DNA of 37,316 nucleotides, from positions 107,612 to 144,927 of the forward strand of contig NZ_KB235938.1 in the NCBI RefSeq assembly GCF_000332315.1, written 5' to 3'. A model generated the notes under the pieces. It was given only the letters and a program-made list of their open reading frames with translations, had not been told where the DNA came from and searched no databases. The number at the start of each line of letters is the position of its first letter. Position 1 is the stretch's first letter. Source of the DNA: Prochlorothrix hollandica PCC 9006 = CALU 1027. GTDB taxonomy: Bacteria; Cyanobacteriota; Cyanobacteriia; Prochlorotrichales; Prochlorotrichaceae. Position numbers and translations under genes: made by a program. Of the stretch, positions 14,750-27,410 are shown one piece after another.

Positions 14750-14937
14750 GAGGCAATGCAGCCGTCTGCTACGACCCTGATGCTCAGGGTGGCACCGGGG
14801 CAACACTGGGAATGATTCAAGGTGCCCTAGGGTAGAATCGCCCCCGATCGCATCGGGTTTTCCCCTAGCCTTGGGCACCTGATGCCAGTAGGCTAGACCC
14901 AAGACGACATTGTGATCCCATCGTGAGGGCAACATCC

Positions 14938-16524
14938 ATGGGTCAGTGGTTGTTACCAACCTTAAGCGAGCTAGTGTCCCAAGCCAATGCCGCCTCCAGC
15001 CTGGGAGAGCGGGAGCCACCGCCAGATCCCTGGGCCACAGAACGCTGGACCACAGAACGCTGGCGGGGAGCCATGGCCCGATCGCAGCGGGAATGGGGCA
15101 GTGCCATTGTGGCCCTCGGACACCTGCTCCAAGGGGCGGCCTCGCCCCAGCCCTTGGTTCACAGCACCGACGATCGTTGCCCCCCAGAGCCAGGGCAGTA
15201 CCAGGGCTTAGTGTTATGTGGACCCTGGCCCGTCTTTAACCAACCGGATCTGCTGCGGCAACTGTCCACTTGGATCTTTCTCCCCGATTTGCTATCAGGT
15301 TGGGTGAGCACCCCCCTTCAATTGCTGCCCTGCGCCAGCGATCGCCCCCCTAGTTTTTGTCCTGTGCCGCCCCAACTGTTGCCCCTATTGCCCCCCGATC
15401 CCCTCAATGGTGAGCAATTTTGCGTTGCCCTGACTCCCTACTTCAGCTTGGTGTTGGTGTTAGGGGAAACCGAGGCGGGATACCCGAAGTTTCAGTTTTC
15501 CTTCGATCCGGACTGTGTTCGCCGCTGTAGCCAAGCCCTCCAAGCCCGCGCCCAACTGATCTATCCCCGCCGTGCCCAAGCTTTGGAGCATTGGCTGAAT
15601 ACCTTCGCCCCCGTGGAGCCAAGTTACCGGTTGGTGAGTCAGTTTAGTCGTTCCCTGGTGACAGCCCTAGGGGATCTGGGGGACACGGAGGATGCCGCCA
15701 TGGGGGACAGCCCCCAGAGAACCCCCGACAGTTCCGCGCTGAACCCTGGCCCAGATGGCCCTGAATCCGATTCCGGGGCTGACAGTCAAGATATTCAACT
15801 GCTCCAAGCCCTAGCCCATGAGGTGCGCACTCCCCTGGCCACCATTCGCATTCTGACGCGGTTGTTGTTGCGGCGGCGAGACTTAGCCCCAGAGGTGGTG
15901 AAGCAGTTAGAGGTGATTGATCATGAATGTACGGAGCAAATCGATCGCTTTAACTTGATGTTCAAAGCGGCTGAACTGGTGGCCGATCGCCAGGGCCATC
16001 CCCCCCTGCGATCGCGCCACCTCGCTGCCACCGCCCTCGATCAGGTGTTTCAGGCCAGCGTGCCCCGGTGGGAAAAACAGGCCCAACGCCGCAGCCTGAC
16101 CCTGGATGTGGTGCTGCCCCCCCACATGCCCTTGGTGGTCAGTGACTCCACCATGTTGGAACAGGCGCTAACGGGTTTAATGGAGCGTTTCACCCGGCAT
16201 TTGCCATCGGGGAGCCACATTGAAGTGGAAGTGTCCCTGGCGGGGGATCAACTGAAGTTGCAATTACAAGCTAATAAATCCAATGTGCGATCGTCCCGAT
16301 CGGCCCTCACCCCCCTGCCCAATGCTGGGGATATGCCGGCCCCCCAGTTCCAGTCCCTCGGCCATTTACTGATGTTGCAACCGGAAACCGGCAGCGTCAG
16401 CCTCAACCTCAATGTCACCAAAAATCTCTTTGAAGCCCTGGGGGGTAAGCTCAAGGTGCGGGAAAAGTCCCGCCAGGGGGAAGTTCTCACCCTATTTTTG
16501 CCGTTGGAGGTGCAACAAGGGTGA
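14938..16524 (+). CDS. Histidine-kinase-like protein with degenerate ATP-binding domain
   Basis: About 528 residues from ATG 14938 (MGQWLLPTL); an upstream ATG at 14923 adds five. The N-terminal 240 residues form a soluble sensor-like region with no membrane helix and no PAS/GAF motif I recognise. An acidic linker follows. A clear dimerisation/phospho-acceptor H-box comes next, LAHEVRTPLATIRILTRLLL, with the histidine at about residue 299 of the longer form. The ATPase region is abnormal: the N-box position reads LEQALTGLMERFTRHLP, without the usual Asn. No DxGxG or GLGL box is visible, and the C-terminus reads NVTKNLFEALGGKLKVREKS. It may be a pseudokinase or a receiver of phosphate from another kinase. 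Its stop overlaps the start of the phosphatase gene by four bases, implying coupled translation. Confidence 0.8.
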   Translation: MGQWLLPTLSELVSQANAASSLGEREPPPDPWATERWTTERWRGAMARSQREWGSAIVALGHLLQGAASPQPLVHSTDDRCPPEPGQYQGLVLCGPWPVFNQPDLLRQLSTWIFLPDLLSGWVSTPLQLLPCASDRPPSFCPVPPQLLPLLPPDPLNGEQFCVALTPYFSLVLVLGETEAGYPKFQFSFDPDCVRRCSQALQARAQLIYPRRAQALEHWLNTFAPVEPSYRLVSQFSRSLVTALGDLGDTEDAAMGDSPQRTPDSSALNPGPDGPESDSGADSQDIQLLQALAHEVRTPLATIRILTRLLLRRRDLAPEVVKQLEVIDHECTEQIDRFNLMFKAAELVADRQGHPPLRSRHLAATALDQVFQASVPRWEKQAQRRSLTLDVVLPPHMPLVVSDSTMLEQALTGLMERFTRHLPSGSHIEVEVSLAGDQLKLQLQANKSNVRSSRSALTPLPNAGDMPAPQFQSLGHLLMLQPETGSVSLNLNVTKNLFEALGGKLKVREKSRQGEVLTLFLPLEVQQG

Positions 16525-17294
16525 CGAGACTGGTACTCCTGCGCCATGGGGAATCGACGGGCAATCGGGAGAAGCGCATGGGGCGAGGGGATTATGCCCT
16601 GACGGAGGACGGTTGGCACCAAGCCCATGCCCTAGGGCAGTGCCTCGCCCAGGACTCTCCCCGGCCCACCCACCTGATCATTAGTCCAGCCCGTCGATCG
16701 CGCCAAACCCTAGAAGCCGTGCTGACCGGTCTGGGCATCCAGGGGCTGCAACCCTTCGGTTCCCAGCGTTCCCAGAGTCCGGATCCAGAAACCGCCCTGG
16801 GGTTTAGGCAGCGTCTGGGGGAGATGGTGGCCCACCAGGGTATGACCTTAGGGTTGGACGATCGCCTCCAGGAAATTGACAATGGCATTTTCTGCGGCTT
16901 AACCTGGCCCGAAGCCCTGGCCCGATATCCTGAGGTGTGTCAACGGCTGCAAGATGCGCCCCAATGGATCCCGATCCCAGGGGCTGAGTCGCCCCAGCAG
17001 TGCTGGGATCGGGCGCGATCGTGGGTGGCCGAGATCACGGCCCTGGGATCCAGCAGCGTTATTTGGACCGTGACCCATGGGGGAATTTTGCCCTACCTGC
17101 TGGGGGCGCTGTGGGGGAGCGATCGCATCTGGGGATTCCAGGCAGAACCCACCGCCCGCTTTGAACTGGAGTGGGACGGCGATCGCTGGCCCGATGCCCT
17201 GGATCCCACTGCTAGCCATCAAAATGCGTTTAATGCCACCCTCTGGCGCATTCTCCGGTTTAACGATCGCTGCCACTGGCCAGGGTCAGGGTAA
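16521..17294 (+). CDS. Histidine phosphatase superfamily protein (phosphoglycerate-mutase-like)
   Basis: 257 residues, starting with GTG inside GTGA so that it overlaps the upstream stop. It has the two-histidine phosphatase core: LVLLRHGEST with R8, H9 and G10 (H9 is the phosphoenzyme residue), SPARRSRQT with the second-shell Arg, E118 in LQEIDNGIFCGLTWPEA, and H186 in VTHGGIL. Such enzymes remove phosphate from small metabolites. Members annotated as phosphoglycerate mutase, alpha-ribazole phosphatase or fructose bisphosphatase cannot be separated by motif alone. The long GIFCGLTWPEA loop and the missing mutase-specific insert favour a phosphatase. Coupling to the HK-like gene suggests a shared regulatory role. 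Confidence 0.88.
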   Translation: MTRLVLLRHGESTGNREKRMGRGDYALTEDGWHQAHALGQCLAQDSPRPTHLIISPARRSRQTLEAVLTGLGIQGLQPFGSQRSQSPDPETALGFRQRLGEMVAHQGMTLGLDDRLQEIDNGIFCGLTWPEALARYPEVCQRLQDAPQWIPIPGAESPQQCWDRARSWVAEITALGSSSVIWTVTHGGILPYLLGALWGSDRIWGFQAEPTARFELEWDGDRWPDALDPTASHQNAFNATLWRILRFNDRCHWPGSG

Positions 17295-22719: not shown

Positions 22720-22731
22720 GGCACGGGCTTC

Positions 22732-23069
22732 CTGGGAGAGCCGCCTTGTAGTCGGCTGCGGGTCGAGTACAACTCGACAATCCTTCTGGGAGCGCCGCCT
22801 TGTAGTCGGCTGCGGGTCGAGTACAACTCGACAATCCCCCTGGGAGAGCCGACTTGTAGTCGGCTGCGGGTCGAGTACAACTCGACAATCCCCCTGGGAG
22901 AGCCGCCTTGTAGTCGGCTGCGGGTCGAGTACAACTCGACAATCCTCCTGGGAGAGCCGCCTTGTAGTCGGCTGCGGGTCGAGTACAACTCGACAATCCC
23001 CCTGGGAGAGCCGACTTGTAGTCGGCTGCGGGTCGAGTACAACTCGACAATCCTTCTGGGAGCGCCGCC
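22732..23069. repeat. 54-bp double-hairpin tandem array, 6 units plus a partial seventh
   Basis: CTGGG recurs exactly every 54 bp at 22732, 22786, 22840, 22894, 22948, 23002 and 23056. Each unit has two hairpins: GCCGMCTTGTAGTCGGC and GTCGAGTACAACTCGAC (7-bp stem, loop ACA). Units differ at a few positions, such as GAG/GCG and CCGCC/CCGAC. There are no unique spacers, so this is not a CRISPR array. Because 54 is a multiple of three, several frames stay open on both strands; these are not genes. Confidence 0.95.
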
Positions 23070-26951: not shown

Positions 26952-27189
26952 TGACAGAATCTAACCTTACCACGGGGGGGCGGTGTTTGCCAACTTTTTT
27001 TTGACCCATTGCTCACCCCCCTTTTTTTTGAACCGCTTGAACCGCTTGAACCGGGAATGTGTAGCGGCGATCGCCCCCCGGCCCAGCCCCCTGCCGCCGA
27101 TCGGAACTTTTGCCTCTTCACCCAATCCCCCCAGCAGCTTTGGTTCCATCCCCCCGATCGGCGATTAACGGAAGTCCTGACTACGCCCC

Positions 27190-27410
27190 CTGGGAGAGCC
27201 GACTTGTAGTCGGCTTGAAGAGGTCGAGTAGAACTCGACAATCCCCCTGGGAGAGCCGACTTGTAGTCGGCTTCAGATCGAGTAGAACTCGACAATCCCC
27301 CTGGGAGAGCCGACTTGTAGTCGGCTTAGGGTCGAGTAGAACTCGACAATCCCCCTGGGAGAGCCGACTTGTAGTCGGATTGAAGAGGTCGAGTAGAACT
27401 CGACAATCCC
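27190..27410. repeat. 54/57-bp double-hairpin tandem array, 4 units
   Basis: Units start at 27190 (57 bp), 27247 (54 bp), 27301 (54 bp) and 27355 (56 bp to the end). Each has GCCGACTTGTAGTCGGC and GTCGAGTAGAACTCGAC hairpins. It is the same family as 22732-23069, but the second loop is AGA instead of ACA and the linker between hairpins varies in sequence and by 3 bp. The last unit ends at AATCCC. Confidence 0.95.

Follow-up and report, generated by a model that had tools for sequence, protein, structure and literature searches.

Hik34, a histidine-kinase-like protein without canonical ATP-binding motifs in Prochlorothrix hollandica and other cyanobacteria: a candidate regulatory partner of Hik2 in the Rre1 pathway

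The gene studied here lies in a stretch of 37,316 nucleotides from Prochlorothrix hollandica PCC 9006 = CALU 1027 (contig NZ_KB235938.1, positions 107,612 to 144,927; this whole stretch is the window below), and it is an orthologue of Hik34 (Slr1285), in which the canonical ATP-binding motifs are gone and the phospho-acceptor histidine is retained. The explanation that we favour, with moderate confidence, is that Hik34 has no catalysis of its own and acts as a partner of the active kinase Hik2, tuning how far the response regulator Rre1 is phosphorylated, presumably through contact with Hik2 and in the manner of RetS towards GacS. Namely, a dead kinase-like chain with a kept phospho-acceptor is encoded directly before a sensor-less active kinase, and it is for this reason that we read it as a regulatory partner. 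The Hik2/Hik34-Rre1 pathway controls cyanobacterial heat-shock genes, and Hik2 has a relative in the chloroplast, the chloroplast sensor kinase (CSK). Two questions now become testable, namely how a protein without ATP-binding motifs counts as a kinase and what regulates the sensor-less 'class II' Hik2, and gene order offers a single answer to the pair of them, in that the Hik2 without a GAF domain may have its sensor in Hik34. The core observation is already in print for one species, and we count it as known because a 2015 paper (PMC4390874) describes Hik34 with the H1/HisKA motif only and no conserved ATP-binding motifs. The window protein is like Hik34 of Synechocystis sp. PCC 6803, reported to be soluble, in having the HisKA motif and in missing the conserved ATP-binding motifs. 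What we add is the class-wide spread, the motif counts, the hik34-hik2-rre1 order, the co-occurrence with Hik2 and the promoter site.

The identity with Hik34 was established by way of published primers. Namely, slr1285 is reported to be Hik34, and a publication on Synechocystis (PMC4689873) gives four primers for a neutral site lying 'near slr1285'; a search for one of them in six genomes gave a match in two (G240 and G207). In G240, all four match, with 0, 3, 4 and 2 mismatches, in the gap immediately upstream of the hik34 orthologue, the innermost adjoining its start; in G207, two primers give a match, each with one mismatch, and the other two give none. By our own reading the far flank of this gap is a Crp-like gene, and the hik34 orthologue is the sole histidine-kinase-like gene beside the site in both genomes. 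Because the primers land directly upstream of the orthologue in these two related genomes, we equate it with Hik34; at locus L157 (G061), none of the three primers tried matched.

Hik34 is present in 279 of 290 sampled genomes of the window's class at an E-value of 1e-15 or better. Of 116 genomes sampled across the phylum, 49 have a match at 1e-30, every one of them in that class, 47 of the 67 genomes without a match being absent from the search output; the order-level search contained the window's own genome only, and a search of plasmids gave no match. As for the 11 class genomes without a match at 1e-15, a profile returns 1e-11 to 4e-15 in ten, which are probably ordinary kinases to judge from the two inspected (L163 and L183, boxes intact), and nothing in the eleventh, G060. 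In particular, Hik34 is absent from six of the seven genomes of family f16 searched, and the seventh holds a strongly diverged copy (L161, G069). PMC4390874 also states that no Hik34 orthologues were found in other bacteria; if meant for cyanobacteria, this is contradicted by the class count and by a published statement on Halothece.

One line of evidence for a partnership with Hik2 is gene order. In families f5 (7 genomes), f13 (6) and f28 (1), of which we take f13 to be Gloeobacter and f5 to be the Synechococcus JA strains, each of the 14 genomes has, directly after hik34 and in the same orientation, the gene of a short Hik2-type kinase. This kinase, of 208-277 amino acids, has DHp and an intact catalytic domain and leaves no space for a GAF domain; the absence of GAF was checked with Pfam in one case (L153) and read from length elsewhere. 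The gap between hik34 and the GAF-less hik2 ranges from -1 to 96 nucleotides, measured to the first start codon, and the best Rre1 match comes next in 13 of the 14, after 1 to 64 nucleotides; G094 is the exception, its contig breaking off a short way past the GAF-less hik2. No separate full-length Hik2 was seen in the six of these 14 genomes that were looked at. In a tree of 67 kinase rows, the GAF-less kinases and GAF-bearing Hik2 form one clade (support 100/98) and Hik34 another (100/100), and within the Hik2 clade the GAF-less forms branch first as seen from other kinases, one fork having support of 93/75. Since the H-box pattern removed 7 of the 21 Hik2 rows chosen and the branch that bears the Hik34 clade is long, we leave the place of this clade in the tree uninterpreted. 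Hik2 is a HisKA kinase reported to act on Rre1, and its GAF-less form adjoins hik34; it differs from Hik34 in its separate clade and in that the residues of the N, G1 and G2 boxes are intact in all 6 GAF-less forms aligned. Because hik34, a working hik2 and the regulator gene rre1 lie in a row, their operon position in early-branching cyanobacteria suggests that Hik34 steers Hik2.

A 'class II Hik2' without GAF has been named, as early-diverging, for Gloeobacter violaceus and two JA strains only (PMC5904244), and that paper leaves gain versus loss of the GAF domain undecided and mentions Hik34 twice, in one introduction sentence and one reference. A tentative extension of our argument would place a split histidine kinase in the ancestor of present-day cyanobacteria, with Hik34 as its first sensor subunit: Hik34, the sensing and phospho-acceptor chain, and the GAF-less Hik2, the catalytic chain, would have been made as two proteins from one operon that also held rre1. 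Later this operon would have been dispersed, Hik2 (related to the chloroplast sensor kinase) would have gained a GAF domain of its own, and Hik34 would have stayed as a feedback modulator. We regard this history as less likely than not.

The motifs were followed in an alignment of 149 Hik34 rows (151 minus L163 and L183; 146 distinct). A first-pass annotation, made from the letters of the window, had described an intact H-box, had found the N-box Asn and both glycine boxes missing, and had proposed an orthologue alignment and a structure prediction as checks. The phospho-acceptor His and the Thr of HExxT are kept in 149 of 149 rows, the Glu after the His in 148, and no normal pair of glycine boxes was revealed: the GxG[LMI]G (G2) pattern occurs in none of the rows, and DxGxG in two tails (L077 and L102), counted regardless of position. 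In other words, the H-box and the missing glycine boxes are borne out, and Hik34 differs from an orthodox kinase in having the phospho-acceptor His with HExxTP and no G1 and G2 boxes. The lost N-box Asn is correct for the window, where the residue is Arg, and incorrect in general, as Asn stands at this position in 86 rows, Arg in 46 and other residues in 17; once near-copies are removed, Asn is found in 15 of 66. As controls, the GAF-less Hik2 forms carry both GxG[LMI]G and DxGxG in 11 of 11, and the 14 Hik2 rows cut to 260 residues for the tree carry the first in 13 and the second in 8. That said, the loss of kinase activity in Hik34 is predicted from these motifs alone. Over 66 non-redundant rows, the mean majority fraction is 0.75 in the former G2 region (40 columns), 0.73 in DHp, 0.50 in the sensor and 0.22 in the linker and loop; being conserved like DHp and more than the sensor, the former G2 region is under constraint, is not decaying and probably has a job. 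A decaying pseudogene was rejected, the reading frames being open and the columns strongly conserved throughout the class.

The co-occurrence of the genes was examined in 45 genomes, 34 with Hik34 and 11 without. Hik2 is found in 34 of 34 Hik34-bearing genomes, counting the GAF-less and the short picocyanobacterial forms, and Hik34, Hik2 and a close Rre1 are jointly missing from G057, G087 and G097. These three have no Hik34 above the level of other kinases and no Hik2 at 1e-20; their best kinases reach 123-144 bits with the Hik2 profile, with which GAF-less forms score 176-209 bits, picocyanobacterial forms 210 or more and other Hik2 363-501, and their best Rre1 matches are only 42-43% identical. 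This profile check was added because, with the short-kinase profile, assorted kinases reach up to 166 bits and so overlap with the 156-187 bits of Hik2 from other lineages. Rre1 has been reported to be universal among cyanobacteria, and the three genomes depart from that. A fourth genome without Hik34 and Hik2, G263, is a fragmented assembly. What is more, six genomes of 1.7-1.9 Mb have only 4 or 5 HisKA matches each, one of which is Hik34. The partner kinase that the first-pass annotation had mentioned as one option has, with gene order and co-occurrence together, a concrete candidate in Hik2.

The promoter of hik34 adds a possible link back from Rre1, whose site is given as GTNCGGK in two papers. 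A site of this type (GTTCGGT) is found within 300 bp upstream of hik34 in 55 of the 72 orthologues under 75% identity, as compared with 15.1 (maximum 25) for composition shuffles, 12 of 72 for coding stretches and at most 34 for 150 permuted motifs; upstream of neighbouring genes, it is found in 55 of 229 cases. There are 61 such sites, 44 of them 51-150 bp upstream, 59 forward and 2 reverse, and under 60% identity the site is kept in 35 of 50 orthologues. It should be noted that this test followed recognition of the pathway, that the rows are related by descent and that the shuffles preserve base composition only. At many loci, e.g. at about -120 to -80 of L064 (aattgcgact...GTTCGGTTctac), the site is part of a longer conserved stretch, possibly the promoter of hik34 as such.

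If Hik34 is indeed a non-catalytic partner of Hik2, it would contact Hik2 directly, as mixed dimers or oligomers, and either H294 would be phosphorylated in trans by Hik2 or the HExxT motif would strip phosphate from Rre1; in both cases Hik34 would tune the phosphorylation of the regulator that controls chaperone genes, and Rre1 would in turn induce hik34, its own brake. An action on Rre1 is reported for Hik34 as well as for Hik2. The feedback would be negative since, according to a review, heat-shock transcripts go up on loss of hik34 and down on its overexpression, and since the promoter site fits. Hik34 has also been called a positive regulator under salt stress (PMC4390874), and for this reason the sign of its effect may switch.

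The closest solved fold of the DHp and catalytic region is RetS bound to the DHp domain of GacS (Z 17.1, root-mean-square deviation 2.3, 188 residues), and Foldseek and VIA both rank RetS high. This top match lies within Z 1 of the next row, and given such ties and a model of no more than middling confidence, we count it as a hint only. RetS of Pseudomonas aeruginosa is likewise kinase-like and is reported to block autophosphorylation of another histidine kinase, its partner GacS; it differs in being a hybrid kinase, as reported, whereas window Hik34 has no receiver domain by Pfam. That Hik34 would form a complex with an active histidine kinase, as a modulator of the RetS type does, is suggested by gene order and co-occurrence. 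DivL of Caulobacter crescentus carries Tyr in place of His, and in this Hik34, with its invariant His, is different. The histidine-kinase fold is common to the two, the DivL structure (4q20) having been deposited under the label of a tyrosine kinase.

Several observations weigh against a partnership of this kind. Autophosphorylation of recombinant Hik34 in vitro is cited by PMC4390874 and PMC3264485, so that the proposal of the first-pass annotation, a conserved phospho-acceptor with lost kinase activity, stands for the His and the lost canonical motifs and conflicts with the reported activity. No physical contact or complex between Hik34 and Hik2 was found reported in the literature searched, and in a comparison of DHp profiles Hik2 does not stand out (E 2.7e-14, as against 3.1e-13 for assorted other kinases). 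Hik2 is retained in 7 of the 11 genomes without Hik34, namely six f16 genomes and G060, and since Hik34 was lost there with Hik2 kept, it is, by its distribution, not essential to the pathway. Finally, there is no Rre1-type site in the 600 bp upstream of window hik34; within 300 bp it is missing at L077 and L158 and in 4 of 4 marine picocyanobacteria, it is missing in 4 of 5 operon-bearing loci of the under-60% set, and it is found in only 12 of 23 orthologues at under 50% identity.

Could Hik34 act without Hik2 altogether? As a phosphatase or phosphate sink, it would act on phosphorylated Rre1 through its HExxT-bearing DHp alone and leave Hik2 untouched. The invariant Thr, the direction of the heat-shock transcript changes and an Rre1-type site consistent with a feedback brake would all agree with this, but the GAF-less Hik2 directly behind hik34 in every operon-bearing genome would be left unexplained, as would the reported positive role under salt stress, and we consider it unlikely. 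Doubtful to a greater degree is an unorthodox active kinase, whose degenerate domain would bind ATP and which would phosphorylate its own His and then Rre1. The fold of that domain is kept in the model, its columns are conserved and the N-box position is Asn in more than half of the rows; nevertheless, the G2 pattern is absent and DxGxG nearly so, the lid region is of low confidence in the model, Hik2 autophosphorylation is reported to need the G-box glycines, and the published Hik34 signal could, as we see it, come from a co-purified host kinase.

The first-pass annotation had also proposed a coupling of Hik34 to the histidine phosphatase encoded next to it, with the two genes overlapping by GTGA; the overlap is confirmed, and the coupling as a general feature is not. 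Of 142 Hik34 loci that have a gene downstream, only three carry the phosphatase directly behind hik34, namely the window, L077 and L158, so that a conserved coupling was rejected. That Hik34 and this phosphatase work as a dedicated pair, with phospho-Hik34 reset by the enzyme, is very improbable on this count, and also because the highest score of the enzyme, 84 bits, comes from the alpha-ribazole phosphatase model and stays under the cut-off of 163, while it reaches 22.3 bits with the SixA phosphohistidine phosphatase model (cut-off 74.5), even if the overlap in the window and the same neighbour at the other two loci speak for it. All three linked loci are without an Rre1-type site in the 300 bp upstream, for which reason regulation may differ in these lineages; with its phosphatase neighbour and no such site, the window copy is unlike most non-redundant orthologues.

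In the window (Table 1), the hik34 reading frame starts at ATG 14938, as most orthologues do at the equivalent position, and stops with TGA at 16524; an in-frame GTG at 14923 explains why the phospho-acceptor, H294 here, had been numbered H299. From the N-terminus, which is helical, the protein runs through an alpha/beta domain (residues ~88-245) and a variable linker to a DHp domain of two helices, with the H-box AHEVRTPLATIR and HExxTP intact, and ends in a HATPase_c-like domain. Pfam HisKA matches above its cut-off, and HATPase_c gives 5.4e-4 (20.8 bits, cut-off 26.4); since this lies below the cut-off, we call the ATPase domain recognisable but degenerate, as far as its sequence goes. The AlphaFold2 model has a mean predicted local distance difference test score (pLDDT) of 69 and preserves the catalytic fold of histidine kinases with residues 449-489 below 50. 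These residues we take, from the fold, to be the approximate site of the G1 box and ATP lid in active kinases. As to the sensor, DICT is a weak candidate: it is matched in 4 of 25 Hik34 members at E up to 1 (best 0.024), and hhalign of the sensor with DICT domains gives E 5e-5 and a probability of 67%. A GAF sensor was rejected, the profile comparison with the N-terminal (GAF) part of Hik2 giving a probability of 0.2%.

Table 1. Coordinates of hik34, its parts and the adjoining gene in the window.
Feature	Position	Strand	Details
hik34 orthologue (Slr1285), HisKA protein with degenerate ATPase domain	14938..16524	+	528 aa
Putative sensor domain, weakly DICT-like, not GAF-like	15199..15672	+	residues 88-245, AlphaFold2 alpha/beta domain
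DHp (HisKA) domain	15793..15993	+	residues 286-352; helices 280-311 and 318-351 in model; Pfam 5e-8
Codon of conserved phospho-acceptor His (H294)	15817..15819	+	His in 149/149 rows
Degenerate HATPase_c-like catalytic domain	16021..16509	+	residues 362-524; Pfam below cut-off, catalytic fold in model
N-box Asn position, Arg (R417) in window	16186..16188	+	alignment
Residues 449-489, low-confidence stretch	16282..16404	+	pLDDT under 50
Two-histidine phosphatase gene (His_Phos_1)	16521..17294	+	His_Phos_1 6e-35; overlaps hik34 by GTGA at 16521-16524

Some observations on the surroundings of hik34 may be recorded here. In 29 of 150 loci, L006 (7796-9214, minus strand) among them, a kinase is encoded no more than three genes away from hik34 whose N-terminus is like that of the L006 kinase, in which Pfam recognises a DICT domain (1e-24). 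At the five loci from f2 genomes (L145-L149), the same two genes stand upstream and the same gene downstream of hik34 in 5 of 5, the order at L145 being, by our own reading, mrp, rodA, hik34, psaD, trpE. Elsewhere in the window, there are two arrays of a similar 54-base repeat, at 22731-23069 (6.3 copies) and 27186-27410 (4.1 copies).
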